A stretch of 64,000 nt of DNA, taken from NCBI GenBank assembly GCA_019096065.1, contig JAGUCH010000006.1:1446001-1510000 (forward strand), written 5' to 3'. The position numbers were made by a program, and so were the translations under genes. Numbering within the stretch: position 1 is the first letter of the stretch; every line of letters begins with the position of its first letter. Positions 2,681 through 32,000 of the stretch are shown in pieces. The notes under the pieces are model-generated. The model had not been told where the DNA came from. It did not search any database and saw nothing but the letters and a program-made list of their open reading frames with translations. The DNA is from Paracyclopina nana (lineage: Eukaryota > Arthropoda > Copepoda > Cyclopoida > Cyclopettidae).

Positions 2681-4736
2681 ATGAAATTAATTTAAGACTA
2701 ATAATTACGTAATTACGCCAGTTAATTAGGCTAAAATGGAGTAACAGAAAAAGTGGTAAATGAGAATTGAGTTATAAAATAGCAAACTTTCCTTTTATTA
2801 CTAGGAAGCAGAAACAGCAGTTGAAATTAATTTAAGACTGCTATTTACGTAATTACGCCACTTAATTAGGCTAAAATGGAGTAGCAGAAAAAGTGGTAAA
2901 TGAGAATTGAGTAATAAAATAGCAAATTTTCCCCTCATTACTAGGAAGCAGAAACCGCAGTTGAAATTAATTTAAGACTGCTAATTACGTAATTACGCCA
3001 GTTAATTAGGCTAAAATGGAGTAACAGAAAAAGTGGTAATTCAGAATTGAGTTATAAAATAGCAAACTTTCCTTTCATTACTAGGAAGCAGAAACCACAG
3101 TTGAAATTAATTTAAGACTGCTAATTACGTAATTACGCCAGTTAATTAGGCTAAAATGGAGTAACAGAAAAAGTGGTAAATGAGAATTGAGTTATAAAAT
3201 AGCAAACTTTCCTTTCATTACTAGGAAGCAAAAACCGCAGTTGAAATTAATTTAAGACTGCTAATTACGTAATTACGCCAGTTAATTAAGCTAAAATGGA
3301 GTAACAGAAAAAGTGGTAATTGAGAATTGAGTTATAAAATAGCAAACTTTCCTTTTATTACTAAAAAGCAAAAACCACAGTTGAAATTAATATTAGACTG
3401 CTATTTACGTAATTACGCCAGTTAATTAGGCTAAAATGGAGTAACAGAAAAAGTGGTAATTGAGAATTGAGTAATAAAATTGCAAATTTTCCCCTCATTG
3501 CTAGAAAGCAGAAACTGCAGTTGAAATTAATTTAAGACTGCTAATTACGTAATTACGCCAGTTAATTAGGCTAAAATGGAGTAACAGAAAAAGTGGTAAT
3601 TGAGAATTGAGTTATAAAATAGCAAATTTTCCCCTCATTGCTAGAAAGCAGAAACCGCAGTTGAAATTAATTTAAGACTGCTAATTACCTAATAACGCCA
3701 GTTAATTAGGCAAAAATGGAGTAACAGAAAAAGTGGTAATTGAGAATTGAGTTATAAAATAGCAAACTTTTCTTTCATGACTAGGAAGCAGACACCACAG
3801 TTGAAATTAATTTAAGACTGCTATTTACGTAATTACGCCAGTTATATAGGCTAAAATGGAGTAACAGAAAAAGTGGTAATTGAGTTATAAAATAGCAAAC
3901 TTTCCCCTCATTGCTAGAAAGCAGAAACTGCAGTTGAAATTAATTTAAGACTGCTAATTACGTAATTACGCCAGTTAATTAGGCTAAAATGGAGTAACAG
4001 AAAAAGTGGTAATTCAGAATTGAGTTATAAAATAGCAAACTTTCATTTTATTACTAGGAAGCAGAAACCACAGTTGAAATTAATTTAAGCCTTCTTATTA
4101 CGTAATTACGCCAGTTAATTAGGCTAAAATGGAGTAACAGAAATAGGGGTAATTGAGAATTGAGTTATAAAATAGCAAATTTTCCCCTCATTGCTAGAAA
4201 GCAGAAACTGCAGTTGAAATTAATTTAAGACTGCTAATTACGTAATTACGCCAGTTAATTAGGCTAAAATGGAGTAACAGAAAAAGTGGTAATTCAGAAT
4301 TGAGTTATAAAATAGCAAACTTTCATTTTATTACTAGGAAGCAGAAACCGCAGTTGAAATTAATTTAAGACTGCTTATTACGTAATTACGCCAGTTAATT
4401 AGGCTAAAATGGAGTAACAGAAAAAGTGGTAATTGAGAATTGAGTTATAAAATAGCAAATTTTCCCCTCATTGCTAGAAAGCAGAAACCACAGTTGAAAT
4501 TAATTTAAGACTGCTAATTACGTAATTACGCCAGTTAATTAGGCTAAAATGGAGTAACAGAAAAAGTGGTAATTCAGAATTGAGTTATAAAATAGCAAAC
4601 TTTCCTTTTATTACTAGGAAGCAGAAACAGCAGTTGAAATTAATTTAAGACTGCTATTTACGTAATTACGCCAGTTAATTAGGCTACAATGGAGTAACAG
4701 AAATAGGGGTAATTGAGAATTGAGTTATAAAATAGC
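2681..4736 (+). repeat. 140-bp AT-rich tandem array, about 15 copies
   Basis: Copies begin with TGAAATTAATTTAAGAC at about 2681, then TTGAAATTAATTTAAG at 2821, 2961, 3101, 3241, 3381, 3521, 3661, 3801, 3933, 4073, 4213, 4353, 4493 and 4633. The period is 140 bases except one shortened unit of 132 bases. Each unit contains the near-palindrome TTACGTAATTACG. Units alternate between variants (for example CTTTCCTTTCATTACTAGGA and TTTTCCCCTCATTGCTAGAA), suggesting that some growth was by blocks of two units. There is no long open frame. The array abuts the reversed 322-bp satellite directly at 4736/4737. It would lie in the intron upstream of the innexin exon if that gene were once intact. Confidence 0.95.
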
Positions 4737-7700
4737 CAGCTTTGGCATTGCATTACATCTGCTTGCCCCAACATGGCCAAAAACTGACAGGGCGGGGCAA
4801 GCAGCCAAAAGGGGGGAGGTATGACCCCAAATGCAACTGAATTTATCAAATGTCAAGTCAGTGATGACTTTGAAGGCCAGCAAGGCCAACAAAGTGGCCT
4901 TGGAGGGATGCTTGTCACATTGGTCTTTTATTAGTACTATCGCGTAACACAGATAACTTGACCCTGGGGCAAGCAGACACTTGGGCTAACTTTTGACCCA
5001 AACTGCTCTGTCAGGGGTCTGAGACAGAGCCAAAGAAGGTTCTGAAGGCCAAAAAGGCCAGCTTTGGCATTGCATTACATCTGCTTGCCCCAACATGGCC
5101 AAAAACTGACAGGGCGGGGCAAGCAGCCAAAAGGGGGGAGGTATGATCCCAAATGCAACTGAATTTATCAAATGTCAAGTCAGTGATGACTTTGAAGGCC
5201 ACAAAGGTCAACAAAGTGGCCTTGGAGGGATGCTTGTCACATTGGTCTTTTATTAGTACTATCGCATAACACTGATAACTTGACCCTGGGGCAAGCAGAC
5301 ACTTGGGCTAACTTTTGACCCAAACTGCTCTGTCAGGTATATCTGCCATACCGCAAATCCACCTAAACGCAGTCCACCTAAACGCAGTCCACCTAAACGC
5401 AGTCCACCTAAACGCAGTCCGCCTAAACGCAGTCAACAGCAATACTCAGACATAATTATTTCACAATATTTGCGAACAAAACAAATAAGTGATATTAATT
5501 AAAATTATTAAAATTAATAAAATTGAGTTATCAAAGTTATTTGACATCATAAGAAATTATTAACATTTTAACATTAACATTTGAAAATTACTTTCCATCA
5601 TATAAAATCGTTTATATATGTAAACAAATTATAAAACAGGCTTACAAAATATCTGAGTTCATTTTGCAAAGGAAAAATCTTGTTGCATCACTTGGCTCTC
5701 GCAAGCTCGAGCCCACAAAGTTGCCACTCGATTTTTACTTTACAAAATTTGCTCAGCTATTTTATTAGCTTGTTTTATAAATTGTTTACATATATAAATA
5801 GATATTAATGACTATGCGTTGACTGCGTTTAAGTGGACTGCTTTTAGGTGGACTGCGTAAAAGCAGATTTGCGCAAAAGTGGATTGCGTTTAGGTGGATT
5901 TGCGGTTAGGTAGTACATTCCTCTGTCAGGGGTCTGAGACAGAGCCAAAGAAGGTTCTGAAGGCCAAAAAGGCCAGCTTTAGCATTGCAGTACATCTGCT
6001 TGCCCCAACATGGCCAAAAACTGACAGGGCGGGGCAAGCAGCCAAAAGGGGGGAGGTATGACCCCAAATGCAACTGAATTTATCAAATGTCAAGTCAGTG
6101 ATGACTTTGAAGGCCAGCAAGGCCAACAAAGTGGCCTTGGAGGGATGCTTGTCACATTGGTCTTTTATTAGTACTATCGCATAACACTGATAACTTGACC
6201 CTGGGGCAAGCAGACAATTGGGCTAACTTTTGACCCAAACTGCTCTGTCAGGGGTCTGAGACAGAGCCAAAGAAGGTTCTGAAGGCCAAAAAGGCCAGCT
6301 TTGGCATTGCATTACATCTGCTTGCCCCAACATGGCCAAAAACTGACAGGGCGGGGCAAGCAGCCAAAAGGGGGGAGGTATGATCCCAAATGCAACTGAA
6401 TTTATCAAATGTCAAGTCAGTGATGACTTTGAAGGCCACAAAGGTCAACAAAGTGGCCTTGGAGGGATGCTTGTCACATTGGTCTTTTATTAGTACTATC
6501 GCATAACACTGATAACTTGACCCTGGGGCAAGCAGACACTTGGGCTAACTTTTGACCCAAATTGCTCTGTCAGGGGTCTGAGACAGAGCCAAAGAAGGTT
6601 CTGAAGGCCAAAAAGGCCAGCTTTGGCATTGCATTACATCTGCTTGCCCCAACATGGCCAAAAACTGACAGGGCGGGGCAAGCAGCCAAAAGGGGGGAGG
6701 TATGATCCCAAATGCAACTGAATTTATCAAATGTCAAGTCAGTGATGACTTTGAAGGCCAGCAAGGCCAACGAAGTGGCCTTGGAAGGATGCTTGTCACA
6801 TTGGTCTTTTATTAGTACTATCGCGTAACACAGATAACTTGACCCTGGGGCAAGCAGACACTTGGGCTGACTTTTGACCCAAACTGCTCTGTCAGGGGTC
6901 TGAGACAGAGCCAAAGAAGGTTCTGAAGGCCAAAAAGGCCAGCTTTAGCATTGCAGTACATCTGCTTGCCCCAACATGGCCAAAAACTGACAGGGCGGGG
7001 CAAGCAGCCAAAAGGGGGGAGGTATGACCCCAAATGCAACTGAATTTATCAAATGTCAAGTCAGTGATGACTTTGAAGGCCAGCAAGGCCAACAAAGTGG
7101 CCTTGGAGGGATGCTTGTCACATTGGTCTTTTATTAGTACTATCGCATAACACTGATAACTTGACCCTGGGGCAAGCAGACAATTGGGCTAACTTTTGAC
7201 CCAAACTGCTCTGTCAGGGGTCTGAGACAGAGCCAAAGAAGGTTCTGAAGGCCAAAAAGGCCAGCTTTGGCATTGCATTACATCTGCTTGCCCCAACATG
7301 GCCAAAAACTGACAGGGCGGGGCAAGCAGCCAAAAGGGGGGAGGTATGATCCCAAATGCAACTGAATTTATCAAATGTCAAGTCAGTGATGACTTTGAAG
7401 GCCACAAAGGTCAACAAAGTGGCCTTGGAGGGATGCTTGTCACATTGGTCTTTTATTAGTACTATCGCATAACACTGATAACTTGACCCTTGGGCAAGCA
7501 GCCAAAAGGGGGGAGGTATGACCCCAAATGTAACTGAATTTATCAAATGTCAAGTCAGTGATGACTTTGAAGTCCACAAAGGCCAGCAAAGTGGCCTTGG
7601 AGGAATGCTTGTCAAATTAGCCTTTCATTAGTACTATCGCGTAACACAGATAACTTGACCCTGGGGCAAGCAGACACTTGGGCTGACTTTTGACCCAAAC

Positions 7701-8066
7701 TGCTCTGTCAGGGGTCTGAGACAGAGCCAAAGAAGGTTCTGAAGGCCAAAAAGGCCAGCTTTGGCATTGCATTACATCTGCTTGCCCCAACATGGCCAAA
7801 AACTGACAGGGCGGGGCAAGCAGCCAAAAGGGGGGAGGTATGGCCCCAAATGCAACTGAATTTATCAAATGTCAAGTCAGTGATGACTTTGAAGGCCAGC
7901 AAGGCCAACAAAGTGGCCTTGGAGGGATGCTTGTCAAATTAGCCTTTCATTAGTACTATCGCGTAACACAGATAACTTGACCCTGGGGCAAGCAGACACT
8001 TGGGCTGACTTTCGACCCAAACTGCTCTGTCAAGGGTCTGAGACAGAGCCAAAGAAGGTTCTGAAG
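4737..8066 (-). repeat. 322-bp satellite array, minus orientation (right arm)
   Basis: The same unit as at 1-2206, reverse complemented. Equivalent points recur at about 5017, 5931, 6253, 6575, 6897, 7219, 7713 and 8036, a 322-base spacing except where interrupted. A 583-bp transposon is inserted at 5338-5920. One unit between 7219 and 7713 has lost about 150 bases, with the join exactly in the TGGGCAAGCAG core. Most units carry the ATAAAAGACCAAT-type variant, but the last ones (about 7617-8000) carry the ATGAAAGGCTAATTT-type variant that dominates the left arm. The array ends in a 10-bp minisatellite. Together with the left arm it forms a palindrome-like arrangement around a 2.5-kb core. Confidence 0.96.
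5338..5920. mobile_element. Non-autonomous fold-back DNA transposon (MULE-like) inside satellite
   Basis: A 583-bp segment interrupts a satellite unit and is flanked by a 10-bp direct repeat, CTCTGTCAGG, at 5328-5337 and 5921-5930, consistent with a target-site duplication. Both ends carry inverted copies of ACCGCAAATCCACCTAAACG. The left end then has four to five tandem 15-mers (GTCCACCTAAACGCA) and the right end carries diverged inverted versions. A second, inner inverted pair (TATATGTAAACAAATTATAA near 5615 and its complement near 5775) makes it fold on itself. No coding capacity is visible. Target duplications of 9-11 bp and long subterminal repeats fit Mutator-like elements, but the family is inferred. 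Only one copy is seen here. Confidence 0.75.
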
Positions 8067-8290
8067 CTTGCACTAGCTTGTTCTTGCTTGCTGGCATTGC
8101 TTGCCCCTGCTTGCCCTTGCTTGCCCTTGCTTGCCTCTGCTTGCCCTTGCTTGCCTCTGCTTGCCCTTGCTTGCCCTTGCTTGCACTAGCTTTTTCTTGC
8201 TTGCTGGCATTGCTTGCCCCTGCTTGCCCTTGCTTGCCCTTGCTTGCCCTTGCTTGCCCTTGCTTGCCTCTGCTTGCCCTTGCTTGCCCT
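8067..8290 (+). repeat. 10-bp minisatellite (TTGCTTGCCC-type)
   Basis: Tandem repeats of a 10-mer, TTGCTTGCCC with variants (CTCTGCTTGCC, CCCTGCTTGCC), in two blocks. Each block is introduced by a copy of GCACTAGCTT plus TTCTTGCTTGCTGGCATTG, at about 8069 and 8182, so a unit of about 113 bases has duplicated. The 10-mer resembles the CTGCTTGCCCC core of the neighbouring satellite, which suggests that it grew from that core at the array edge. The encoded Leu/Ala/Cys/Pro-rich frames are repeat artefacts. Confidence 0.9.
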
Positions 8291-12691: not shown

Positions 12692-13671
12692 GTGTATTCC
12701 ACCGTCACGAAGACATTTCCTTCAACATTACACCAAGAGCAGAGCAAGCCTCAAAAATTGAAGTAATTTCTAATTTATAAGTTGCTCACTGTTGTTACTT
12801 GCTAGCTGGAAAGTCATGAAAGGATCGGTTGACATTTAACAGCGCAATTTCTAGAATTTTTCGTTGATACTTTGTTTCAAAAAGTGAGTAAAAGAAAAAC
12901 AAACTTTATAATATCTGAAAAAGCATTCAGATTAAACCGCTGAGCAATCCAAAAAATCAATGCAGAAGGAAAGTAGACCTAATGCAAAAAGATAAAGAAG
13001 CCTTAAAAAAGTATTTTCGGCTCTGTGCAGAAATTTCTAGAGATGTATCGGCTGAAGAAAAGTCAGGCTCGGAGCCTTCAAGAAATATTTGTCCAGTCAG
13101 ATATTTCAAAACGTTACACGGTTTTCTTATCAGTTTACCGTATTATTGATTATTCTTAAGCACAGATTGATCTGAAAGATTTTGTTTGCGAATCTTTTGC
13201 CAAATAAGAATTATTCGGCTACTGAGCTTGGGCATGGCTTGAAATTCTCTTAATCATTTCTAGATATTTCGCGAATTATTTAGAAATTTCATTCATTCAA
13301 AACTCAAAACGTTCGACAGTTTATATTGTATTGGTGAATGTGAAAAGTAGCAATGATATAAGAACCATCGCAATTAACGTCTCACGAAATATTCTTAATT
13401 CTCCATTCCGATCTTCTAGTTTTTTAATGCTTGGCATATTCCCGCCAAAAACAAAGCTATCTAAAGTCTTCTATGTTTTCCTTTCAGTCCAAGATTGTGG
13501 CGTTTTTTGAAAGAATTCGGCCTTTTTCGAAGGCAAATCATAAATACCTTCAAAAATTCCAAATCAAGTCGCGACTGAAACTGATTTTGACGGCTTGTCT
13601 CAGCTTCTAAAGTGCCGCTCTAAGGTGACGGGTGACTTGAGGGACATTATTGATCAAAATTACGGACCAAG
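12692..13671. promoter_or_regulatory. Shared upstream region of two divergent genes
   Basis: About 980 bases of AT-rich sequence between divergent start codons. It must contain the 5' ends of the minus-strand gene at 12691 and of the UHRF1-like gene at 13672. I see no TATA box or CpG island close to either start. Whether it acts as one bidirectional promoter cannot be told from sequence. Confidence 0.5.
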
Positions 13672-15538
13672 ATGAACGTTAAAGTCAACAACATCGCCAC
13701 TGGCGAGACAGTGAACATTAAAGGTTGTTCGAAGGCTATGACGGTGAAAAAGTTCAGAAAAATGGTCAGCGAGGTAGTCGGCGTGAAGGCTCCACTACTT
13801 AACTTAATATTCGGCGGGAAATTCCTGAACGACGACTGCGATCTTTGTGATTACAAAATCGAGGCTGGATACACGGTCCAAATGCAAGCCAGACAACCTC
13901 TGTCACCGCTGAAAAAGTCCGATGAATCGAAGCAGAATGTCGAGGCTAAGGAGGAAAAGCCCCAGGAAGAAGAAACCCTTTCCCCGGAAGAGGAGAAGAG
14001 AAGGCTCCTGGAAATTGGCGCTCTGGACCTGGTCAGAGACTTGGAAAATGAGCAGGCTCCCCAAGTGGAAGAAATCTGCAAAAGATGTAAAAACAATGAT
14101 GCGAAAAAATGCAAGGAGTGTGGATGCTCTGTCTGCGGTGGAAAGGAGAACCCCGAAACTCAACTGTTTTGTGAACAATGCCAGTACTTCACCCACATGT
14201 CTTGCCTCGATGAACCTCTGGATGCGGTGCCTGAGGATGACTGGTATTGTCCAGACTGCTTTAACGACCCCAACCAGATTGTTGGCAAGAATGAGAGAGT
14301 CAAGTATAGCAAAGCTAGAGCAAAAATGCCCTCCAGGCAAAAGGCCACCAAGCGTGACTGGGGCAAAGGATATGCCACTGCTGGTCGAACTAAAACTTGC
14401 ACCAAAGTTCCGAAAGGCCACTTTGGTCCCATCCCAGGCATTGATGTGGGCATGTCATGGCAGTATCGGATTCAAGCAAGTGAAGCTGGTGTGCATTTGC
14501 CACCTGTTGGTGGAATCGCTGGAACTGCTGACAAAGGCTGCCAAAGCATCGTTCTTGCTGGCGGATATGAGGACGACGAGGACAACGGTACAGAGGTTTA
14601 TTACACTGGAAGTGGCGGACGAGATCTGAGCGGCAACAAGCGAACTTCGGGCCAAAGCTCTGACCAGGAGCTAACTCGCTTCAATAAGGCTATTGCGGTG
14701 AGCTGTAATGCACCCTTTGACGACAAAGAGGGAGCGGAATCAACCGACTGGAGGAAGGGCAAGCCCATCAGAGTTTTGCGCAGCTACAAATTGCAGAAGC
14801 ACTCAAAGTATGCTCCTGACATTGGCGTTCGGTATGATGGCATTTATAAAGTTGTTAAATACTGGCCTCAAAGAGGAAAATCGGGCCACATAGTTTGGCG
14901 GTACCTCTTCCGGAGGGACGATCCAAGGTAATAGTTTAAAGTCACATCTTAAATCAATCTGCCTTACCTCAGTTTTTCTTCGCATTTTTAGCCCTGCTCC
15001 TTGGGAAAAGGGAGCTAAAAAGTTCAAGTGCATCATGAAAGAAGAGGAAGAAGGCGCTACTAGCAGCAAAAAAAGGAAAGCTGAATCCAACGATAACGAA
15101 CCAGGTGCGAAAAAAGTCAGAGATGAGGACGAACCAGATGAGATTTACTTGGTTGAGCCAGAATTGCATGACCTTATCAAAGCCGATACCAAAAATAAGA
15201 AGTACTGGGACGACTGCTTGCAATTTAAGGGACCTAAGAACGAATGGTTTGACCTCGTCGAGAAGGTAACAAAAAAAAAAAACAAAGTTTTCCTTGGCAG
15301 TAGTTCATCTTGCTTCTTTTTCTTCCAGACATTCGATTGCTTCGGGTGCAACGAAATAGTGAAGAAACCAGTCACCCTACCTTGTAATCACAATGCATGT
15401 CTCGCTTGCTTGAAAAAGTCCTTTAAAAACGAATACTATGAATGCTGGTTTTGCCGTTTTGCGTTAGGCAAAGATTACCAACTTGAAGACAATGTAAATA
15501 CCGAATGTGACAAAGCTCTGAGAGCTCTTTTCTCCTAG
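13672..15538 (+). CDS. Uhrf1: UHRF1-like protein (UBL-PHD-SRA-RING) lacking tandem Tudor domain
   Basis: UHRF1 binds hemimethylated CpG and, through its RING E3 ligase, ubiquitinates histone H3 to bring DNMT1 to replicated DNA. Exons 13672-14927, 14992-15265 and 15329-15538 join in frame to 579 residues. Domains seen: ubiquitin-like, about 1-77; PHD, about 136-196, with its Cys/His series; SRA, about 249-420, with GPIPGIDVG, the base-flipping pocket segment LAGGYEDD, YTGSGGRDLSG and the NKR finger at 322-324; C-terminal RING, with Cys514, Cys517, Cys529, His531, Cys534, Cys537, Cys549 and Cys552. Vertebrate UHRF1 is near 790 residues and has a tandem Tudor domain of about 150 residues between UBL and PHD. 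Here residues 78-133 are only a charged Glu/Lys linker. A poly(A) signal lies at 15557. All catalytic and DNA-reading parts look intact. Confidence 0.95.
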
Positions 15539-15926
15539 AGCCCTATGAACATGAGCAATAAAAATATGACTAGTGAACTTTCCCTTCATCAATATAGATC
15601 GGATACTGAGATAAGATCATCCAACATGAAAAATGAAAGCAATTTGGGATCAACCAGGTAGGGAACTTGGCAGAATATTGATCCGTTACTACTGCACATG
15701 ACTCAGACTTCACGGCGCGGCGTGAAGCTTTTATGCACAGTCCAAACTGGTAGCTCTGAATTCAATTTAATTGTTCGCCAAATTCAAGTGCGTCAACAGC
15801 CCAAAACAAAACAAGCTGAGATTGTCGCAATGGCATCGTAAAAATTCAATTTACGGGCTAAACTTCCGACATATGTGATATCCCAAGGGAGCAAATCGAC
15901 CTAACATTCAGGAGAATTGTTCAATC
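15539..15926 (+). other. Intergenic: UHRF1-like 3' end and CFAP53 5' region
   Basis: About 390 bases between stop and start codons of two plus-strand genes. AATAAA at 15557-15562, 19 bases after the UHRF1-like stop, is a likely poly(A) signal. No other feature is recognised. Confidence 0.6.
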
Positions 15927-17600
15927 ATGTCTATTGTGTCTTCGCGACAAGGCTCAAGGCACCGCTTTCAAATTTTCGGCCAAAGAGCTCAAAGGGAAGA
16001 AGCCATCGTACGAAGACGTGAGTCTGAGCGGATGAAAAATGAATTTTGGGCCTCCACTACAAAGTACTTTGGCCAAATTCACAACCAAAATGAGAGGTTT
16101 GAACAGTGGACGAGTCCCGAGGCTGTGAAGAAAAGGTGAGTTTGCTTCAACTTATTAAGTCTTGCGTCGCTGTCACGTTCATTTTTATTTCAGCGAAGAG
16201 GCTTTCAGAAAGGCCAAATTGGCCGAGACGCGGAAAGAAAATCTCTTAGCTCGCAGGTGTAAGTTAAAGGCCTTGCTGGAAGCCGAAGAGTCCCATGACC
16301 TCGAGCAAATGAGGAAACTACCAGCAGGAGTCGCTCGTAAATCTATCAACGACATTCGGCAAGAATACGAGAAAATGAGAATGCTACGAGAGGAAGAGCA
16401 GAAGAAGGAAGCAGAAGAGAAAATGCTCCATCATTGGAAAATCAACAATCCAGAGTATCGCGAATTGCAGTGCAAAAAGCGTTTCGAAATGGTGCAAAAA
16501 GCCTGGGATGATCAGCTTAGCCAAAAGAGGGAAATCGAGGAGGCTCATAAGCGGCAAGAAGAAATCAGGTTGAGGGTCGAGGCTGAAAAGGAGCTACGTA
16601 AAGATGCCGAGGAAAAGCAGCGAGAACGGGAAAAGGAGAGGAAAATTCAGGAATGGAAAGAAATCATTATAGGTCAAATTGAGCAGCTAAAGGAGCGTCG
16701 GAAAGAAGAGGAACATGTTAAGCGTGAGCTCGCCGATGCTCAGGACCGTGAGAAGAAAATGGCGGATGTTGAGGTGAAAAGACGCAAAATTGAGGAGAAA
16801 AGAAAGGCTCTGAATTACAAAGAATTTCTGGACAGACAGCACAGGTTGAAGCTACTGTCAAAAACTCAACAAGTTCAAAAGGAGCTGGAGGAGGACAAAC
16901 GGCTATTGGACGAAATCACTAGCTTTGCTGCGGCCCATGATGCACATCAAATTGAGGAAAGGAATGAAAAGAACCAACGGCTCAATTGGCTAAAAGATGT
17001 GATAGATATGCAAAAGATGGAAGAGGCCAGGCGACAAAAGGAGATGGAGCTCTTGTTCTCTGAAGAGGCAGAAAAAATGTGGCTGAAGCAAGAGGTCGTC
17101 TGGAAAAGAGAAGAGGACGCCAGAAAACGCCTTCTAGATGATGTCATGTCTGGCCTCAAAGAGCAAATTCGAGTCAAGGTTCAAGGTAAATTGTAGCTTA
17201 TCTGAACTCTCTTTTTTCTCATTTATTGATGGACTGTATGCTTTCAGAGAAAAGGCGTCATGAAGAATTGGTAATTCTTGAAAGAAGGAAAATAGAGGAG
17301 AATATCGATCGTCTTTCTAAAGATATTCAGCTCGAGGAAACTGAAAGGCAGCGCCAACGAGATATGTTTGTTGAAGATCTTGATAACCAAGTCGAAGAGA
17401 AAAAAGCACTCGTAAAAAGCGCGCAAAATCGAGGCGAGCTCTTTCGATCGAACAACGAGCTTGCGAGCAAACTCGCAAAACTACACATGACTGACAACGA
17501 GCCTGTGATAACCGTGAGTCACTCGCTGATGGTTTTTAATCAGCTTCTATATTTTTGATTTTCTTAGGATTTCCGTCGGAGAAGAGCCAAATGGTTTTAA
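15927..17600 (+). CDS. Cfap53: Cilia- and flagella-associated protein 53 (CFAP53/CCDC11)
   Basis: CFAP53 is a microtubule inner protein and dynein-docking-associated factor of motile cilia, also at centriolar satellites; in vertebrates it is needed for left-right patterning. Four exons, 15927-16135, 16194-17185, 17248-17513 and 17568-17600, with short GT-AG introns, give 499 residues, close to the human 514. From about residue 70 onward the protein is almost entirely charged coiled coil rich in Glu, Lys and Arg, with the TPH-type signature of this family. The segment RKRLLDDVMSGLKEQIRVKV matches the family's conserved LVDEVM region, followed by a Glu/Arg-rich helix (EKRRHEELVILERRKIEE). In an arthropod the main use would be sperm or sensory cilia. 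The last exon is only 33 bases, and the stop is one base from the stop of the opposing methyltransferase gene. Confidence 0.88.
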
Positions 17601-17601
17601 G

Positions 17602-18168
17602 TCACAGCTTCCTCATGGTGTATATAAATCCTTTTGCATCCAATCCCATTCCTGAGTATCCTCCAAGGTATGCAGCTCCACTATCAGTAAACACCAGTCT
17701 ATCAACCATTTTCATTGGTGTGTAGTATTCCCACTGCTTCAAGGCACGCAGTTCATCAATGATCATGTCATAGCTTTCAAAGTCTTTTCCAAAGAATTCA
17801 TACCCCTCTGCAATGTTCCACATCAAGAAGCCGCCGGGCTTGACAATCCTGAGCAATTCAGGAAACACTTTGGGCGATAGCAGTCCTTGGAAAAAACCGG
17901 CACAGCAAAGCATCACGTCATAGGTCTCATTTTCAATGGGCAGCTTCTCGAGAGGATCAACAGAGGTGTGGAAGTATTCTTTGTATAAGTTGTTTGCTTT
18001 TGCCACCTCTAAGTAGCTCTTCATGCAATCCAGTCCATCTATGTTTGAGTACCCTTCTGCGACCAACTCCATTGCTACTGCTCCCGTGCCACATGCTATG
18101 TCGATTATGCGAACGGATTTATCGAGGTTTAAGCTCAAAAAAGTCTCGCCTATTGTGACACGTTCCAT
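17602..18168 (-). CDS. METTL27-like (WBSCR27) SAM-dependent methyltransferase, short N-terminus
   Basis: A class I methyltransferase of the METTL27/Williams-Beuren region 27 group; the substrate is unknown. Motif I for S-adenosylmethionine is IIDIACGTGAVAMEL at about 21-35, followed by an acidic loop (GLDCMKSYLEVAK), then YDVMLCCAGFFQG and LLRIVKPGGFLMWN, all in family order. A single exon is visible. The first ATG in frame, 18168, gives 188 residues; an in-frame stop lies 11 codons upstream. Human METTL27 is near 245 residues and has about 45 residues before motif I that are missing here. The missing helix could be on an upstream exon I cannot find, or truly absent. The ATG is only 107 bases after the SCPx stop, and CCAG 9 bases before the ATG could serve as a splice acceptor. 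The 3' end abuts CFAP53. Confidence 0.85.
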   Translation of the reverse strand: MERVTIGETFLSLNLDKSVRIIDIACGTGAVAMELVAEGYSNIDGLDCMKSYLEVAKANNLYKEYFHTSVDPLEKLPIENETYDVMLCCAGFFQGLLSPKVFPELLRIVKPGGFLMWNIAEGYEFFGKDFESYDMIIDELRALKQWEYYTPMKMVDRLVFTDSGAAYLGGYSGMGLDAKGFIYTMRKL

Positions 18169-18245
18169 TGCAATTGTCTGGCATTGTGCCAATATTTACA
18201 ATTGCAAATTTACTAGCAGTAACAGTGCATGCACCGGCAAATAGG

Positions 18246-18274: not shown

Positions 18275-21200
18275 TTACAATTTGGATTTCATTACGTCGC
18301 CTGCCTGCTTTTGGAATTCTTGCAATTTCATTGCAAGTCCCATGTTGCCCTGGACCTTCAACTTGCCCTGAAAAAAGGCCTTTTGAGGGTTCAGCTTTCC
18401 GGTCATCAAATCCACCAAGTCATTATCCGCCAAAGATAAAGTGACATCTGGCTTATCTGCAAAAAATTGTCCACTAATAAATAAGGTCTCAAAAAAGAGA
18501 TGTATCTGGTTTTGATGGAGATTATTTTGGGCGATAGTGACGTTGTTTCGTAGAGCTTTTCATTTTCTAAGCATTTCTGCTCTTAATCAAACTTTTGCTA
18601 TTAATTACCTTTTCCGTTCAACTCAACTTTTCCATTGCCATTTTTAGCATCCACTATCCAAAGAGCTTCATTCCCATTGCTATCCTTCACCTTAAATCCA
18701 AAAATCCCCTTGACCTTCTTCACCAAATTGGCCCCATCATTTTTCAATGCCTCCTCGATTCCATCGAAAATCAAGGCTGATTTAAATCCCTTTGTTCTAG
18801 GAAAGAAAGTCAATAAGTTATGACAAGAGCAAAAAACAAAGAGCCTTTGTTGCTTTGTTAAGGCATGAGAAAGTACCACACATATACAGTTCGAGGCTAC
18901 TATCAAAACACTCATTACTAATACAAGGCTCTCGTTGAGAAGACAGCTTTCAAGTGATCGGGCGGGGTACGCACAGGAATGCCGAGTTTGACCTGATCCC
19001 ACGTCATCATGAGCATCAGCAGCCAAGGTTTGACACGCTGCTATAGCTGCTCCAGTGCTACAATTCAAAACAACTATAACGACCAGTGCAACGCTAGCTA
19101 GCTCCGCTAACCTTTTTTGCACTAGGTTGTGAAATCTTTGGCCAACAACATATTGATGTCCCACTATTTGAGAATCAATTTCTTATCAACAAAAAAGCAG
19201 TGAAATGAGATAAGTGGGGCTGAATTCCTGTGAGTGTGCTGATGTCACCCTGTGCAGCAAAAGTCTACACTACTTGGCCTAGAAGAAAACATGTCACAAA
19301 ATGTCAGCCAATATGAGATGGTACCAACTCAAGAGTGGACCAGAAATGACCACAGCTTGCCTCCCATAGCCATAGCTATGAGGCAAGCATCTAATATGGA
19401 AAGCCAAAAAAGCTGTGATTTGGGTAGTTTAGATGCTGACTGGTATCCTATTTTGAGCAGCAAGCTCCAGCCCAGAAGAAGAGCCGTGCCCACCTCTCCT
19501 CAAAAACGAAGTAGCTTCGGTGATCAGCCTGACTTTTCACGAACCACCACTTCACCCACCAGACCCTCTTTAGAAGATGAAATCGACGGAAGAGGAACTT
19601 TTGATGCAGAAGAGCTTATTAAAGAGCTGAAATCCATGCACAGAACTGAACTTGAAAACCAATTGGGCCTCTCATGGAATAAAGTTCGGGAGATTATCAG
19701 GAGGTCTGACGTCGACAGAGATGGCAAAGTTGAGTACAGAGATTTCTTGGTGACCCTACAAAACTACAGACTCAACACGGAGCAAGATTCCACGTTGAAA
19801 AGTCTGGTCCGAGCTTTTGCTTATGCTGAAGAGTTCACGTGCACACCAATCAAGTGGTTCATGATCGCAATAACGCTGATCGAGACTGCCTTCTTTGCCT
19901 ACCATTCAATTCATCTAACCACCCAGCACAACATTCCAGTCACTTGGGATGGCCCGGTCCCCTTTTGCTCTGTGCTCATCTACAATCCCAACAGAAGGTG
20001 GGAAGCGTGGAGGTTCGTTACCTACATGTTTATCCACATTGGCATCAGCCATTTCATTTTCAACATGATAATGCAAATTCTGGTCGGAGTCTTCCTCGAA
20101 ATGCAACAAGAAGGATATGCTGGATCTTTTCGGGTCATGTTGGTGTACTTTTCCGGAGTTTTGGCTGGATCCCTGGGAACCTCATTGTCTGATCCCAACA
20201 CCTACATAGCTGGAGCCTCCGGGGGCTGCTATGCTCTCATAGCTGCCCATTTGGCTACTCTGGCTCTCAACTGGCAAGAAGACAGTGCAATAAAGATAAA
20301 GAAAATCATCCACAGGCCACTGACGAGGATTGTGAGGATATTGTTCATAAGTTTTTTGACCATTCACGATGTTGCCCTGGCCATATATTTTCGAGTGGTT
20401 CTCAATGAAGAAAGCAGAACTGGATTTATGGGACATTTTTGCGGGGCACTAGCTGGACTCCTAGTTGGAGTTTTCATCCTTGATAACCGAAGGTTCGCGG
20501 TACTTTTCTAATTTAATGCAACTAATTGAGTTTGTTCTCTGCAGGGTTCAAGTCTGGGAAGTCTGGGTGCAATGGATCGCTGGGCTCCTTTTTATGCTCC
20601 TAATTGTATTTGCAATTGTGTGGAACATATTTGGCAACCAGTGGACCGACGGAACTTTTTACCCTACTCCGGATTATCAACTGTACGACGACGAGAGTGG
20701 AAACTGCAGATTCTACAACTATTTGTAACCTTCCTAGTCATCGGGATCTCCTGTGAAATTATACTTATTTAGCACTTACTTGTCATTGGCCTCGGTGAAT
20801 CCCATCTTGTACAACGCGACTACCACTGCTCCACCAAGTCCCAAGTTGTGTTGCAATGCGATTTTAGCGTTAGGCACTTGTCTTTTGTCCGCTTGGCCAC
20901 GAAGCTGAAGGCAAAGTTCAGTGCATTGAGCGAGTCCTGGACGAGGAAGATAACGTCGTTAAGTCAAGAACATTTATCTTCCTTAGATAAAGTGCAGCAC
21001 TGCGCTGTGCAAACTTTATGAATTTTTAATTTACCCGTGGCACCAAGCGGATGGCCTTTGGAAATGAGGCCTCCAGAAGGATTGATGACATACTTGCCAC
21101 CATATGTATTGTCACCCCTGTCAATAAGCTCACCAGCCTTTAGTAGAAAAAAAACAATTCCAAATGATGCAATTAATTTAATGGTGAGCCGCAGTTACCT

Positions 21201-24200
21201 TTCCCGGAGGACAAAGGCCCAAGGCTTCGTAAGTGATTAGCTCATTGGCAGAAAAACAGTCGTGGAGCTCAATGACGTCGACGTCGGTGGGTTTGAGCAT
21301 GGTCTTGTCAAAAAGCTTTTTGGATGCATTTGCAGTCATGTCATAGCCTATCATTTTAATGCAGGATTTCTCCTCAAAAGTGGAAGGAAAGTCAGTGGCC
21401 ATTTCAATGCCTAAAATCTCCACAGCCTTTTTTGGACATATTTTCAAAGTTGCTTATTTGAATCCAAAACTACTTGAAAAGCTCGGCTTACATTTCTTTC
21501 AAGGCCATGTCTTCTCACAAAATCCTCAGAGGCCAGAATAGCTGCCGCCGATCCATCAGAGGTGGGACAGCACTGAAGTTTAGTCAACGGTTCATGAATT
21601 GAAGGGGAATTCAAAATCTGATCCAGGCTGTATTCATCACGAAATTGGGAGTTCCTATACAGATAGAAATACTCATTTAGAACTGTCTTTTTTGTGTCCC
21701 TTAAAATAATTATACGGGTTGTTCACGGAGTGCTTGTGGTTCTTGTAGGCAACCTTGGCAAATTGCTCTTTGGTGGTGCCAAACTTTTGCATATGCTCTC
21801 TACCAGCATTGCCAAACATCTGGGCAGCCATGGGAGAGGCCTGAATGCCATGCTCAGAGTTCATCATCACTTCCACATGTTTGTCCATAGGATTTGTTCG
21901 ATCATCGAACTGCATCATTAAATAAATAAAAAGTAATAAAGCATAATGGCCCATACTAAATACTGCCCACGATCGCGCACTATCGCGCACAATCGCGCAC
22001 AATCGCGCACTATCGCGCACAATCGCGCACAATCGCGCACAATCGCCCACAAACGCGCAACTACTAAAAACTGCCCATGGATCAAAACGAGCACAAATGC
22101 GCACAAACGCGCACAATCTAAATACTGCCCAGAGATGATAATTAAGAGATAAAAAAAGAATAAGAGTCAAAAATACTTAAAGTAACCCTTATTAAGCAAT
22201 AACAACAACAGTACAATGTTGTCAACTCTAAGGTAAAAACCGCTACAACACTTTTCAACATTTACTTTTTTCCTAGATTTTTTTTTGCTAATTTGGGATG
22301 CTTAAATCTCAACTAAGAGCTGACTCAGCATTCTTGACCCAATGCTGAGTTTTGCTGATAATTTGAGGTACCTGAGTCAACCCCAGCCTGTAGATTAAGC
22401 AAGGATCTACAAAATCCGTTTTTTGGCTGCCCTGAAACGTCCACAGTAGTACTTTTTTTCAGCTAAGTGCAGTCTCAGCATTTTTGACCCTTTGCTGATC
22501 TCTGCTGAAAATTTGAGGCAGCTGAGTCAATTTTAAGGGCCGATTTTAGGAATACCAACAAGCTGCTAACTCCTGCCCATGTACTGAAAGTTGACAGGCA
22601 TAAAATAGAAATACAAAAATACAAAAATGCTGAGTCAGGTCTCAGAAGTGAGTAACTGACTCATTTTTGTATTTCCATTTTATGCCTGTCAACTTTCAGT
22701 ACATGGGCTTTACTTAGCAATTGTTGATACTCCTAAAATCGGCCCTTAAAATTGACTCAGCTGCCTCAAATTTTCAGCAGAGCTCAGCAAAGGGCCAAGA
22801 ATGCTGAGACTGCACTTAGCTGAAAAAAAGTACTACTGTGGACGTTTCAGGGCAGCCAAAAAACGGATTTTGTAGATCCTTGCTTAATCTACAGGCTGGG
22901 GTTGACTCAGGTACCTCAAATTCTCAGCAAAACTCAGCATTGGGTCAAGAATGCTGAGTCAGGTCTCAGAAGTGAGTAACTGACTCATTTTTGTATTTCC
23001 ATTTTATGCCTGTCAACTTTCAGTACATGGGCTTTACTTAGCAATTGTTGATACTCCTAAAATCGGCCCTTAAAATTGACTCAGCTGCCTCAAATTTTCA
23101 GCAGAGCTCAGCAAAGGGCCAAGAATGCTGAGACTGCACTTAGCTGAAAAAAAGTACTACTGTGGGCGTTTCAGGGCAGCCAAAAAACGGATTTTGTAGA
23201 TCCTTGCTTAATCTACAGGCTGGGGTTGACTCAGGTACCTCAAATTCTCAGCAAAACTCAGTATTGGGTCAAGAATGCTGAGTCAGGTCTCAGAAGTGAG
23301 TAACTGACTCATTTTTGTATTTCTATTTTATGCCTGTCAACTTTCAGTACATGGGCTTTACTTAGCAATTGTTGATACTCCTAAAATCGGCCCTTAAAAT
23401 TGACTCAGCTGCCTCAAATTTTCAGCAGAGCTCAGCAAAGGGCCAAGAATGCTGAGACTGCACTTAGCTGAAAAAAAGTACTACTGTGGACGTTTCAGGG
23501 CAGCCAAAAAACGGATTTTGTAGATCCTTGCTTAATCTACAGGTTGGGGTTGACTCAGGTACCTCAAATTATCAGCAAAACTCAGCATTGGGTCAAGAAT
23601 GCTGAGTCAGGTCTCAGAAGTGAGTAACTGACTCATTTTTGTATTTCCATTTTATGCCTGTCAACTTTCAGTACATGGGCTTTACTTGGCAATTTGTTGA
23701 TGCTCCTAAAATCGCAGTATTTAATAGTCATTTTGTTGATCCTTTTGAATATACAGGTTGGGGTTGACTCAGGCGCCCTTAACTCAAAAATATGAGTTTC
23801 TTATCATTTGTGGGCAGTATTTAGTATTTGCGCGTTTGGGTGCGATAGTGCGCGTTCGTGCGCGTTTGCGCGCGATTGTGGGCAGTATTTAGTATATACG
23901 AAGCATAATAGCATTAATTTCGAGTTCTGAGAGTCTACCTGAGATGACAAAGAGCCTCGTTGCATCTTTTCAAAGCCAAGGGCAAGGACACAATCAGAGA
24001 GGCCACCAGCAACAAATTGATAGCCCATGAAAAGAGCTGATGAACCAGTCGCGCAATTATTGTTCACGTTGAAAATGGGAATGCCTGTGAGCCCCATTTG
24101 GTACAAAGCCCTTTGACCGCAGGCGGAATCACCTTATAAATTCGTTTAAGTTTTTAATTATTAAGTTGAACAAAAAGGGGTACCATAGACATATCCAACC

Positions 24201-26073: not shown

Positions 26074-29000
26074 ACGGAGAGATTCCAAGTGTACCGATCA
26101 CCACTTTGGCTGGAATTGCCAGTCTGACAGATTGTAAGCCTAGTTACCGTCATTTTATTGCGCGCGCATTATTCTATCCATCAAATATGCGATTGAACCT
26201 CATTGATTTAAAGCAGAATTTCAAGAATGCGCTTTGATGCGTCAGCATGCCGATTGTCAAAAAAGGTCCGACGCATGCGTCAAATTTAGGCGCACCCTCT
26301 CAGCTGACGTGAGCTTGATAGGCTCTGACGCAAGTTGACGCAAGCGCCATCTGTTGGCCTTCTCGTGTACTTGTCCTGATTATTTGTGCTTTTTCTTCCA
26401 GTGCTTCCTGAACTGCCAGTGGCTGGTCCATCGAGCTCGGGTCCACAATGTCCATCTTCAAATTATATGTACCATGCGACCATCGCGGAGGAAGCAGGAC
26501 ATTTACTCGCAAGGCCGAACGATGCTCTGACCTCGCAACTGGGCATTGCATTGGCCTCCACTCCGGTGGATCACATCACTCTCAATGCCAAAAATGTTTC
26601 TGCCTTTTCACACCAGTCGGGGCCTCCTCCGATGACGTCCAATACAAGTCACTTACAGGGTGCTCTCTACAGACGTGATCAGGGAATCTTCTACTCCCTC
26701 AACCGTCAACAGCAGCACATAGTGCAGCAACAACATTGGAACAATGGGGGAGTGCAGCAACAACCCTCTGCGGCACCAACCAGTATCGATGCCAATTACT
26801 CTCCTGGTCACTACGGACACGCCAGTCCTGCATCTCTTTCCCAAACTGGTTATCCCCAAATGAACTATGGCTACACTCAGCAGCAACAACAACAGTTTGC
26901 CTACCAGCAAGCGGCCATGTCCCCCATGATGGGGAACAGCTCACAGCACATCTCTCAAGTCCAACAGCAGCAACAACATGTGCAGCCGCATTCAGGTCTG
27001 ACGACGCACGGGGCTCCTACTCAAATAAGCAACGTGCAGGATCAGCAAACACCGGTTCAAAAGTTTGAGCCACAAACTAGTACAAATGGAGGAATGGTCG
27101 AGGGGCAAGCGGCGCAGCAACAGCTATCTAACAATAAACATGGTCACCTTCCTTCTGTGCCGCCAGAAACAGTGAATGAGGAGGCTACTCATCAAACACA
27201 GCAAATAAACCACGTTGACGTGAAGGAGGAATCTAAACCAATGTCCTCGATTGCTTCCAATAGCAAAGCCAACGTCCTCAAGCCTATGCTTATGATTAAT
27301 AAGCTTACAAAGGAGGACGAAGAATTGATGCAAAAGAGCCTGAAAGCATTTGTGAAGGAGAATCCCAAACGCGCCCAAGATCTTGGGGTTGTTGCTTCCT
27401 CGAGATCTAGAAGGGGCCTTGCTGTGAAGCACTCGGACAGTTTGTCGTCAGAGTCTGAGTCTGAAGAAGAATCCAACGCTGAGCCGAAAAAGCTGAAAAG
27501 TAAGTTTTTCCGTGCAACCGAAAAGGAGAGAGATGACGAGAAACGTCGTGCTAAGGAGGAAAGGCGGAAACGCAAGCTTGAGGATGGCGATGACCCGAGT
27601 TCTGTGGGCAAAAGAAGGCGGAAGGAGGCCACCCCTCCACCAGAAGAGGACGAACTGAAGCCTTTTGTGCCTAAAAAAAGGACTAGAAAGCTTGAGCGCA
27701 AGCTCATCCCGATGATCATGAAGATTGACGCAGACGAGCTCAGTGAGTCGGGCACGTTTTCGCGCTTCAACAAAACGGTCGAGTTGATTTTCGACAACAT
27801 GGAGGATGTGAATATGAAAGACCTGGAAGCTGCCAGCATCGAGAAAGATGGAGATATCGAGCTACCGCCTGAGATTTTAATACCCAAATATCAGCTGCAA
27901 GATCTAGCCAATGAGACTGCCAAACTGAAATCAATGGGAGCCATGGAGACGATATCCGTGGATCGGTTGATCAAGCTCCTCACTGTGCTTGAGCTTAACA
28001 TTCGAGATGGTGCCAAAGTGATTCCTCTGGTCACCGAGGACGATGACGAGGAGGAAGACAACAACAAGATGTGGATAGAAATGGCAATGGAGCGGGTCAC
28101 GAGAGCCGCGGATGCTTCCCTCACAGCCTTGCACATCATGACATCCAAGAAGATGTCCAAAAGAGTCTACATTGACGACGTGATCGATCGTGTAGCCCTG
28201 TTTCTGCGCTTCCAGCTTGCCAACACAATTTACCCATCTTACGACCCGGTGTACCGAGAGATCTCAAAGAGCAAAACCGGATACATTGGCTCCATGAAGA
28301 AAAAGCGGACGCATGCTCACACTGTCAGAGATAAGAATATTCTTTCCTTGTACAACAAGGTCACCGAGATGGTTTCCATGTTGGCTGACTTGGTCAAAAT
28401 CCAGCTTTTGACTGACACAACTGTCCTCCACATCTCCACTCTTGGAGTGGCTCCCTTCTTCGTTGAAGCTATTCCAGAACTCCAACTTGCTGCCCTCAAG
28501 CTAGTGACCAATTTGTTTGGCAAGTACGAAATGCACCGAAAGCTTCTATTGGATGATATTTTGGCGTCGATTGCGAGGCTGCCCAGCTCCAAGCGATCAC
28601 TTAGGACTTACAGGCTCAATTCTGAAACCCACATTCAAATGCTAACTGCCTTGGTGCTTCAGCTGATTCAGTGTGTTGTGACATTACCCAAGAAGCTGGC
28701 AACTATGGATGACAAATCGGCTCCCAAAGAAGATCCAGATGGTACCGATGACATTGGAACTGATGTCGATCGCGACGTCCTCATCAACAATAAATATTCC
28801 ATGGCTATGGCAACGACGCATCAGTTCCTCACTGTGTTTCTCACGAAATGTGCGACCAAAAGTGATGATGTTGACTATAGGCCTCTGTTTGAAAACTTTG
28901 TTCAAGATCTCTTGACAACCGTCAATACTCCTGAATGGCCAGCAGCTGAGTTGATTCTGTCGTTCCTGGGACGAGTGCTTCATGACAAATTTAGCAACAG

Positions 29001-32000
29001 GAGCACTGAAATGACGCTGCGGATATCGTCTCTCGAGTACCTTGGAGTAATAGCTGCTAGGTTAAGGCGAGATGCTGTCCAGTCCAAGCTCAAAATCGAT
29101 TACATTGACTCAATTGTTAATGCTATTCGTGAGGAGGAAGAGAAGGAATGCGAGGCTGATGACGAAGAGGGCGGAACTAAGGGTAAGAAGAAAAAGCATA
29201 AGGCTGTGACCGACGAGGACAAGGAAAATGAAAGGATCATGTTTCTCCAACGGGTGCTGCTAGACTATTTGGCAGTCAATAGCGGGGATGACCAGTCAAT
29301 GATGAATGCTAGGCACTTTTACATTAGCCAATGGTATCGTGACGCCAACGCGATCGGCAAAACATCCCGAACCGTGAAGAGTAAAAAGGCCAAGAAGAAG
29401 CGCCATTCGGATGACGAAACTGAAGAAGAGTCTGACGGCTCAGACGAGGAGGAAAACGAAGAAGACCTTTCCGACAGTGCCAAAACCGAAATTTATAGGC
29501 TCCGTGAGGAGAAGAAGAAATTTCTTCTGAAGAAAATTTTGCCTTTTGGCGTCAGTAGAGGAAACAAGGCACAAGTTTTGTCGACGCACATCGATCATGA
29601 CTCAGCTGTCCTGATAACCCGATATCTTTCCTCCAAACGAAAGTTTTTCAACTCATTCAACCAATACTTGGCCGACATATTATCGATCTTGAATGAGCAG
29701 TCGACACAGATCCGAACGAAGGCTCTCAAGTGTATGACCATGATAGTGACTGAGGATCCGGATGTGCTGCTGCAGTCCAACATGCAAAATGCCGTGCAGT
29801 ATTCGTTGAAAGATACGTCCACGATGGTGCGTGAGGCCGCTGTCGATCTGGTTGGCCGCTTCATTTTGCACAAGCAAGATCTCGTCGCTCAGTATTACAA
29901 AATCATCACCGACCGAATCCTCGATACCGGCGTCAGTGTCCGCAAACGTGTCATCAAGATTCTCAAGGACATTTGCCTCGAATATCCGAGCTACGACAAA
30001 ATACCGGATATTTGTGTCAAAATGATCCGACGCATCAACGACGAGGAAGGTATTCGAAAGCTGGTCATGGACGTCTTTCAAAACATGTGGTTTGCCCCTT
30101 TGCCTAAGAGGCCCTCTGCCGAGGACAAAGATCTTCTCGTCACCAAGGCTCGTAATATCACTGATGTTGTGGTGGCCTGCCAACATGAAACTGGCCTCGA
30201 TTGGTTTGAGCAGCTGCTAGTGAATATGTTTCGCCCAAAGGAGGACAAAGATGATGCTACCAAGAAGAACACCGAGCCTGCAGCACAGCTTGTGTTGGCA
30301 TGTCAGCAAATTGTTGATTGCCTTGTCGAGAGTGTCTTACGAATGGAGGAATCCAACATGGATGCGATGCCTTCAGAAACGAGCCAGCCTGGTAATCCTC
30401 AACAACAGCAACGTGTAGCTTCCAGCCGATTTGTGGCTTGCCTCTCTACACTTTACCTCTTCGCCAAAATCAGACCCCAGCTGTTGATTCCTCATGTCCA
30501 AACGTTGACTCCCTACTTGTCAGTCACAACTCGGTCCCAGAAAAATGACCTGGTCATTTCCAATGTGGCGCGCACCCTTGAATTGACGGTTCCCCTACTC
30601 AAACATCCAAGCGAAATTTTCCTGTCGCAACTCGAGGAGGCATCGGTCAAACTGGTCCTTTTATATGGCCAGAAGGTTGTTGAGTCTTGCCTTTCTTGCC
30701 TTGGCTCCATTGTCAATGATGTGACGAAGAATTTCAAGCTGATTCGGGACTGCTTTGCGCAATATTTTGGTTGGATGACCAAGTTTCGCGCTGTTCACAA
30801 GCAGAACCCCAATGACCCCCGGCTGGCCGATGGCTTGCCTAGGTTTCGCCGAGCCATGTTCACAGTTGGCTTATTGCTCAAGCATTTCGACTTTGAAAAG
30901 GAAGAACTCTACACGGGCTTACCGGTAAGCATGTCCGACCCACCCAATAAGTTTCTTAAATCATGCTTTTTATTTTTCATTTTTCAGACTGGTGAGCGAA
31001 CCGTAGAAGAAGTTTTCATAACTATGTTTTACTTCATGGGTCATGATAGACGGGAAATTCAGTCAGATGCACTACATGCGATCGGTTTCGTTTGTGTTCG
31101 CCATCACAAATTCATGCTCGAGTCACGGCTCAAAATGCTCTACATTGACATTTTAACCATCGATGGGTATGCTGTGCAGCATAAAATCAAAGTTCTCAAC
31201 AACCTCGAGAGCTTTTTGACCGAAGAAGAGGCTCGAATGATCAAAATGGACCAGCACTGTAAGTTTCCTCTCCACCCTTAACAGAGCGAATATTCTATAT
31301 GAATGTTTCTTTCCCAGGGCAAGACTACGGAGGAAAGGAAAATCTGAAAGAAATGGGAGACGTTTCGTCCGGGATGGCCTCTACTGTGATCCAGGTGTAC
31401 CTGAAGCCCATTCTGAACGCATTTCTTAATGCAACCGTGGAATGTCGGCTGGCAGCCCTCAAAGTCATCGCTCTAATTCTTCAGCAAGGCCTCGTTCATC
31501 CTGCCCAGATCGTGCCCTACCTCATTTGCATGGCTACTGACTCAAGCACCAGAATAGCCCATGCAGCAGACCGTGACCTCCAAGTATGAGTTTGAGTTAA
31601 CTAGATTAGAAGTAACCTCTTTAAAAATGTGCTTTTCTCTTTATAGGAAATCGAAAAGAAATACCCTGGTTTCATTCACATGCGCCTACTTCAAGGGATA
31701 AGATTGTCTTTTCAATTGCAACAAATTATCCAGAGAGACCCTGTTGTGGTTCGGGGGTATCGTGTAATTGAAGAGGGCGAGCCTCCCAAGGCAATGAATG
31801 GTTTTCTTTACTCCATCATGAAAGCAACCAAGGCCCAACGAAGGGGTATTTTGATGCAATTCCTAAAGCAATTTGACGAGACATCGGTAAGTAGTATTTA
31901 CTCCACTTTGCTTTTGAAAGCATTTGATGACAATCATTATTTTTTTCCCACAGAAAAACTCATTGAGCATGATGCTTTACTTGGCTGATAACTTGGCTTA

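Follow-up and report, generated by a model that had tools for sequence, protein, structure and literature searches.

The analysed stretch of DNA (64,000 nucleotides, hereafter the window) contains on its plus strand a UHRF1-like gene with three exons and a predicted product of about 580 residues, which carries UBL, PHD, SRA and RING domains (Table 1). The spliced exons form one open frame of 580 codons counting the stop codon. Exon 1 has no in-frame stop, and the other two forward frames of the same segment have 13 and 31. A Pfam search with exon 1 listed six families at E values up to 10, including ubiquitin (residues 4-75), PHD (152-196) and SAD_SRA (250-417), and the top matches of exon 1 in a phmmer search of the PDB were two UHRF1 chains (E values of 7.6e-124 and 7.4e-121). 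Two further open reading frames overlap exon 1, one of 183 codons on the minus strand (13906-14454) and one of 238 codons on the plus strand (13913-14626); both are probably chance frames, the gene being accounted for by the coding frame. Downstream lie a coiled-coil-like gene on the same strand and candidate genes for a small methyltransferase, a protein with an SCP2 sterol-carrier domain and a rhomboid with EF-hand. PMC numbers below refer to excerpts of the respective papers, except where a main text is named.

Table 1. Features of the UHRF1-like gene and of the surrounding window (positions in the window; residues of the predicted protein)
Feature	Positions	Strand	Residues	Remarks
UHRF1-like gene	13672-15538	+		Three exons
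Exon 1	13672-14927	+		UBL, linker, PHD and SRA all inside one exon
Intron 1	14928-14991	+		64 bases, GT..AG
Exon 2	14992-15265	+		Basic spacer and pre-RING region
Intron 2	15266-15328	+		63 bases, GT..AG
Exon 3	15329-15538	+		Holds the RING finger
AATAAA polyadenylation-like signal	15557-15562	+		Starts 19 bases past the last stop-codon base
UBL	13681-13896	+	4-75	Pfam ubiquitin, E 1.4e-8; N-terminal
Charged linker	13906-14070	+	79-133	Occupies the place of the human UHRF1 TTD
Pre-PHD and PHD	14077-14268	+	136-199	Pfam PHD 152-196, phmmer alignment
Altered H3R2 groove	14167-14184	+	166-171	F-C-E-Q-C-Q; human M332-C-D334-E335-C-D337
SRA	14419-14922	+	250-417	Pfam SAD_SRA, E 3.1e-47
KKRK basic patch in spacer	15068-15079	+		Counterpart in phmmer alignment: human 648-651 (KRKS)
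RING finger	15338-15454	+		Exon 3; Pfam zf-C3HC4_3, E 5.4e-7
322-bp satellite arrays	1-2207, 4735-5337, 5921-8066			Both orientations; strongly CpG-depleted
140-bp satellite array	2682-4743			Between 322-bp satellite arrays
10-bp unit run	8097-8290			
Coiled-coil-like gene	about 15879-17600	+		Weak TPH match, E 0.0002, below Pfam cut-off
Small methyltransferase	17605-18195	-		Match below Pfam cut-off
SCP2 sterol-carrier domain	18275-18559	-		Match below Pfam cut-off
Rhomboid with EF-hand	19243-20508	+		Matches below Pfam cut-offs
Near-palindrome	22313-22969			About 657 bases, 91 percent; overlaps a 324-bp tandem array (3.4 copies); region 22313-23714
Single open frame	26380-31278			1633 codons
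Nipped-B_C match	31647-31985			E 1.2e-12
Two mir-263 precursors	37201-37290, 38531-38624	+		Rfam; about 1.3 kb apart; point to animal DNA

Human UHRF1 has 793 residues and the domain order UBL-TTD-PHD-SRA-RING. When the predicted protein was aligned with the 793-residue UHRF1 chain by phmmer, residues 7-78 of the query matched residues 7-78 of the chain and residues 134-418 matched residues 300-585, with 221 residues between the two blocks in the chain and 55 in the query. The UBL alignment was weak (i-Evalue of 0.019 with this chain and 0.00039 with a 782-residue chain). The tandem Tudor domain (TTD, 135-286 of the chain) lies inside the unaligned stretch. The linker found in its place is highly charged, with K, R, E or D at 26 of 55 positions, and contains no F, W or Y, compared with 15 aromatic residues in the 152 of the human TTD query; if aromatic residues were as frequent in the linker as in the remainder of the protein, the chance of finding none in 55 residues, calculated post hoc, would be 0.004. 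The methyl-lysine cage of a Tudor domain requires aromatic residues, and this linker, which has none, is thus not a working Tudor pair. A preliminary description of this DNA had placed a charged linker of about 55 residues where the TTD would be, and this was borne out with the borders corrected to residues 79-133.

A hidden TTD exon is ruled out, as there is no intron between the UBL and the PHD finger, exon 1 is open throughout, and no TTD occurs elsewhere in the 64-kb window. Indeed, tblastn with the human TTD query against the whole window gave chance matches only (best E value of 5.4), and no TTD was among the Pfam families of exon 1 at E values up to 10, a search whose filters discard most matches above 0.1. 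A cassette exon inside the linker is impossible because no intron interrupts the place; the first exon is continuous there, as had been claimed, and no exon was overlooked. A Tudor fold in the linker is likewise ruled out, by its length of about a third of the TTD query (55 and 152 residues) and by the lack of aromatic residues. The check by structure prediction that had been proposed for the linker gave no Tudor fold, at a confidence too low to count: AlphaFold2 run on the single sequence gave a helix at residues 105-127 and no strand, with pLDDT below 50 over residues 75-103 and 105-210. These runs without an alignment were poor (mean pLDDT of 49.6 and 36.1, with PHD and SRA unfolded), and in the shorter one the UBL alone was confident (block means of 71-82 over residues 1-70).

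The segment that follows the linker has changed as well. In human UHRF1, R295, R296 and S298 of the TTD-PHD linker dock onto the TTD (PMC4822050). Their counterpart is missing from the pre-PHD segment of the predicted protein, which reads NEQAPQVEE, and this is consistent with a joint loss of docking motif and TTD. It also bears on an assembly artefact, in which about 500 TTD-coding bases would have been dropped in frame. Although a single sequence was seen, we consider such an artefact highly improbable, given that the reading frame runs on across the place, that the UBL and PHD finger are not barely joined but separated by 55 residues of the protein's own with a disorder-like composition, and that the docking motif is gone too. 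Hence, as far as can be judged from the sequence, the TTD is missing from this protein and, with no TTD and a continuous exon, reading of H3K9me through this domain is absent. Because the TTD is missing, we class the protein as a TTD-less UHRF1-like variant and not as a canonical UHRF1.

We compared the PHD finger with that of human UHRF1. All 12 cysteine and histidine zinc ligands of the pre-PHD and PHD are kept, where the ligands are in part residues that we assume to have this role. A set of 13 contact positions, some of them presumed by us and the others published, was identical to human at 10; the three differing positions (332, 334 and 337) all lie at the arginine-2 groove. The cradle of the H3 N-terminus is retained (V352, P353, E355, D356 and W358), and so are Q330 and L331. 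In or beside the groove, M332 is replaced by F, D334 by E, E335 by Q and D337 by Q, leaving E and Q at the positions of the acidic pair D334/D337, and close by, F stands for A339 and T for F340. The published contact positions come from PMC3214078 and PMC7060239, which also describe mutants of the human protein. D334A has a Kd above 500 μM, D337A has a Kd of about 70 μM (about nine-fold weaker binding), and binding of the double mutant is undetectable (PMC3214078); D334A/D337A abolishes binding of a PAF15 peptide and reduces PAF15 ubiquitylation (PMC7060239). We infer that reading of H3R2 and PAF15 by the PHD finger may be weaker or of changed specificity; the comparison with the mutants is indirect, because E and Q stand at these sites here, and the human mutants carried alanine. 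The glutamate at position 334 might still reach the arginine and keep the salt bridge. The substitutions in the groove could also be drift, since the PHD core as a whole has diverged, with human residues at 18 of 40 positions outside the zinc ligands.

The protein might instead be a working maintenance cofactor whose PHD finger reads unmodified H3R2 and PAF15 normally, and which has lost only the link to H3K9me. The retention of the zinc ligands, of Q330 and L331 and of all five cradle residues would fit, D334E is a conservative change, and human cancer cells are reported to maintain methylation without methyl-lysine reading by the TTD (PMC7585203). Set against this are the four substitutions in or beside the arginine-2 groove and the loss of much or all binding in human D334A and D337A mutants (PMC3214078, PMC7060239), and we regard a fully normal PHD finger as unlikely. 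Histone reading through a normal PHD finger appears doubtful from its residues. The preliminary description had suggested PHD-only histone reading uncoupled from H3K9me. Its second part holds in that the TTD-based link to H3K9me is gone, but normal reading by the PHD finger is unsupported in view of D334E and D337Q. It had also listed UBL, PHD, SRA and RING with their key residues; the four domains are present and the PHD zinc ligands are kept, but the H3R2-binding residues are altered.

In the UBL, 19 of 72 residues are identical to human UHRF1, and the counterpart of human F46 is an isoleucine, as we take position 44 of ubiquitin to be. The SRA domain matches human at 111 of 172 positions. 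All 11 chosen SRA residues, to which we assign roles in the 5mC pocket, the thumb and the NKR finger mostly by assumption, are identical (A463, G464, G465, Y466, D469, Y478, T479, V446, N489, K490 and R491), and the domain retains the 5mC pocket and the NKR finger. Within a wider set of 26 aligned positions, 22 are identical and positions 443, 445, 447 and 494 differ; the first three (R443 to L, H445 to P and A447 to G) adjoin the thumb residue V446. D469 and R491 are named in PMC12704277. The human spacer region, where the KKRK patch aligns, also strengthens binding of hemimethylated DNA (PMC4822050). The RING finger keeps eight zinc ligands, judged by eye on the alignment, and the pre-RING and RING regions together are identical to human at 34 of 96 positions. 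It has F at what we take to be human I725 and W in place of the P of CPAC, two sites that presumably lie on the side usually facing the E2. The RING ligase surface may thus be changed too; the C-terminal RING sequence is present, and the protein may have ubiquitin-ligase activity.

The divergence of the UBL and the RING region would also be expected of a gene on its way out, or of one that serves a purpose other than the maintenance of methylation, in an animal that has ceased to depend on UHRF1. We consider this quite improbable for an open frame of about 580 residues with canonical splice sites and an SRA domain this similar to the human one.

We next placed the protein among known systems. 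It shares with animal UHRF1 and UHRF2 the order of UBL, PHD, SRA and RING, the zinc ligands, the 5mC pocket, the NKR finger and the basic spacer, and differs from them in the missing TTD and TTD-docking motif and in the changed residues of the H3R2 groove and the RING. Plant VIM/ORTH proteins have no Tudor domain either. However, VIMs are also without a UBL and, except for VIM6, carry a RING on either side of the SRA (PMC8594673), whereas the protein described here has a UBL and one RING, none being listed by Pfam in exon 1; it is not a VIM protein by this measure. A likeness to bacterial SRA proteins (four Sphingobacterium loci, L001-L004, 35-38 percent identical over the best segment) is limited to the SRA, covering query residues 251-418 or 251-411. 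Scans of viral contigs returned no eukaryotic relatives, and the scan of genome contigs returned only these four bacterial SRA loci.

The TTD is retained in other animals. It is present in octopus UHRF1 (PMC9476566), the composition of Capitella teleta UHRF1 is said to resemble that of human (PMC11292947), and a figure legend on chaetognaths has the TTD among the UHRF1 toolkit domains that are compared with the ancestral state (PMC12460157). Loss of the TTD in this lineage is therefore the simpler reading of the sequences, in a comparison that covered these non-arthropod animals. PMC10538959 surveys the presence of UHRF1 in Ecdysozoa, and the words 'TTD' and 'tudor' are missing from its main text; the word UHRF1 is absent from the main text of PMC8821070. 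Excerpts of the open-licence literature yielded no description of a TTD-less animal UHRF1, which does not establish its absence from print. The chaetognath Paraspadella gotoi, an animal that methylates transposons, is described as having UHRF1 copies reduced through domain loss; the loss named for its UHRF1 paralogues is that of the ubiquitin domain, and a loss of the TTD is possible there as well (PMC12460157). This precedent of a duplicated UHRF1 raises the possibility that the gene studied here is a sub-functionalised paralogue doing a partial job, with a canonical TTD-bearing UHRF1 elsewhere in the genome, and the altered PHD and RING surfaces fit a relaxed or shifted constraint. In the 64-kb window, tblastn with the whole protein matched its own exons only and the TTD matched nothing, and the gene has introns and so is no plain retrocopy. 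We regard a paralogue of this kind as unlikely.

We also looked at the window for signs of CpG methylation. Over the whole window, the observed/expected ratio (o/e) of CpG is 0.72 and that of GpC 1.34. The intervals 1-2000 and 6001-8000, both holding 322-bp satellite arrays, have CpG o/e of 0.14-0.24 and TpG/CpA o/e of 1.42-1.48. The 322-bp satellite has 16 matches. We aligned the 13 that cover 301 bases or more and set aside 3 partial matches; the pooled CpG o/e is 0.18 and the GpC o/e 1.27, with a low value for TA as well (0.46). The 140-bp satellite is less depleted and has no TpG excess (CpG 0.64 and TpG 0.92 at 3001-4000). In the region of the UHRF gene, CpG o/e is 1.17 at 13001-14000 and 0.58 at 14001-15000.

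Shuffling of synonymous codons revealed a shortage of CpG at codon boundaries, with z below -2 in four of seven coding stretches, six of which are stop-to-stop open frames and not curated coding regions. The z values were -5.1 for the NIPBL-like frame, -4.4 for the rhomboid, -3.1 for UHRF and -2.4 for the methyltransferase, and -1.8 for the NIPBL C-terminal piece, -1.0 for TPH and -0.4 for SCP2. A control with all 16 dinucleotides showed that TA is avoided about as much as CG or more in most coding stretches (z of -3.4 for TA and -3.1 for CG in UHRF, -8.1 and -4.7 in the NIPBL-like frame). In the frames at 13672-15535, 19243-20508 and 26380-31278, avoidance of TA at codon boundaries at least equals that of CG and is accompanied by an excess of CA and TG. 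Since TA is avoided as strongly as CG, an excess of TG and CA need not mean deamination. Variants among the satellite copies were more frequent at CpG sites (7 of 11, against 20 of 151 at the others; p 0.0004) when columns fixed for T/A were left out, but this excess vanished once such columns were counted (7 of 60 and 20 of 244; p 0.45), and six columns combined CG with either TG or CA, in five of which CG occurred in one copy only. The variant test among satellite copies gives no support for deamination. The CpG depletion is thus real and uneven; it fits germ-line methylation, is not specific to it and is no proof. For a gene that is decaying or repurposed, the unspecific CpG pattern of the window would fit and the strong CpG depletion of the satellite would not. 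The earlier suggestion that the protein could copy CpG methylation is compatible with the depletion, which is too unspecific to single it out.

Overall, the reading that we favour, and to which we give an even chance, is a UHRF1-like protein that assists maintenance of CpG methylation, whose TTD was lost in its own lineage and which is targeted mainly by the DNA mark. The SRA domain would find hemimethylated CpG and flip the 5-methylcytosine, as its kept residues suggest, and the UBL and RING, both present, would hand ubiquitin to a nearby substrate, leading to recruitment of DNMT1. The contacts that the human UHRF1 TTD makes with H3K9me2/3, with methylated LIG1 and with the nucleosome acidic patch (PMC12704277, PMC7585203) cannot be made through a TTD, as the predicted protein has none. 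The PHD finger, which retains the zinc ligands and the free-N-terminus cradle but has a changed arginine-2 groove, may bind H3 and PAF15 more weakly or differently, and targeting would rest mainly on hemimethylated CpG recognised through the SRA. We counted the absent TTD and docking motif, the kept SRA pocket and basic spacer, the changed PHD groove, the CpG depletion and the reported dispensability of the TTD's methyl-lysine reading (PMC7585203) in favour of such a cofactor. Counted against it were the RING substitutions (I725 to F, P to W), the altered thumb neighbours R443, H445 and A447 in the SRA, the salt bridge that D334E may keep and the unspecific signature of methylation. Moreover, in human cancer cells both histone ubiquitination and the maintenance of methylation are said to require that the PHD finger reads the H3 N-terminus (PMC7585203), so that impairment of both readers might be expected to leave a UHRF1 working badly.

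A bolder version would be a nearly histone-blind animal UHRF1, in which hemimethylated CpG alone steers the protein through the SRA and the basic spacer and the PHD finger has shifted to another N-terminal ligand. It is disfavoured by the same requirement for reading of H3 (PMC7585203), and we offer it tentatively, as a somewhat unlikely case. If true, this animal would serve as a natural experiment in which DNA-based inheritance of methylation is set apart from the histone-based kind. In excerpts of human and mouse work, mutants have been used to test whether UHRF1 must read histones. A TTD-less protein with a changed H3R2 pocket would provide a ready test of which contacts suffice; if CpG methylation is still maintained, it would be natural proof that the histone link is optional, and if the species relies on this copy alone, the effect of the loss of H3K9me reading on methylation placement becomes testable.

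Three further features of the window stand apart from the UHRF1-like gene. The open frame of 1633 codons and the Nipped-B_C match that follows it, linked by position, probably belong to a Nipped-B/NIPBL cohesin-loader gene, one exon of which would be very large; the portion of the frame that was scanned, its first 500 codons, had no Pfam match. A near-palindrome overlaps a tandem array ahead of this frame in window coordinates, and two mir-263 microRNA precursors follow after the Nipped-B_C match.
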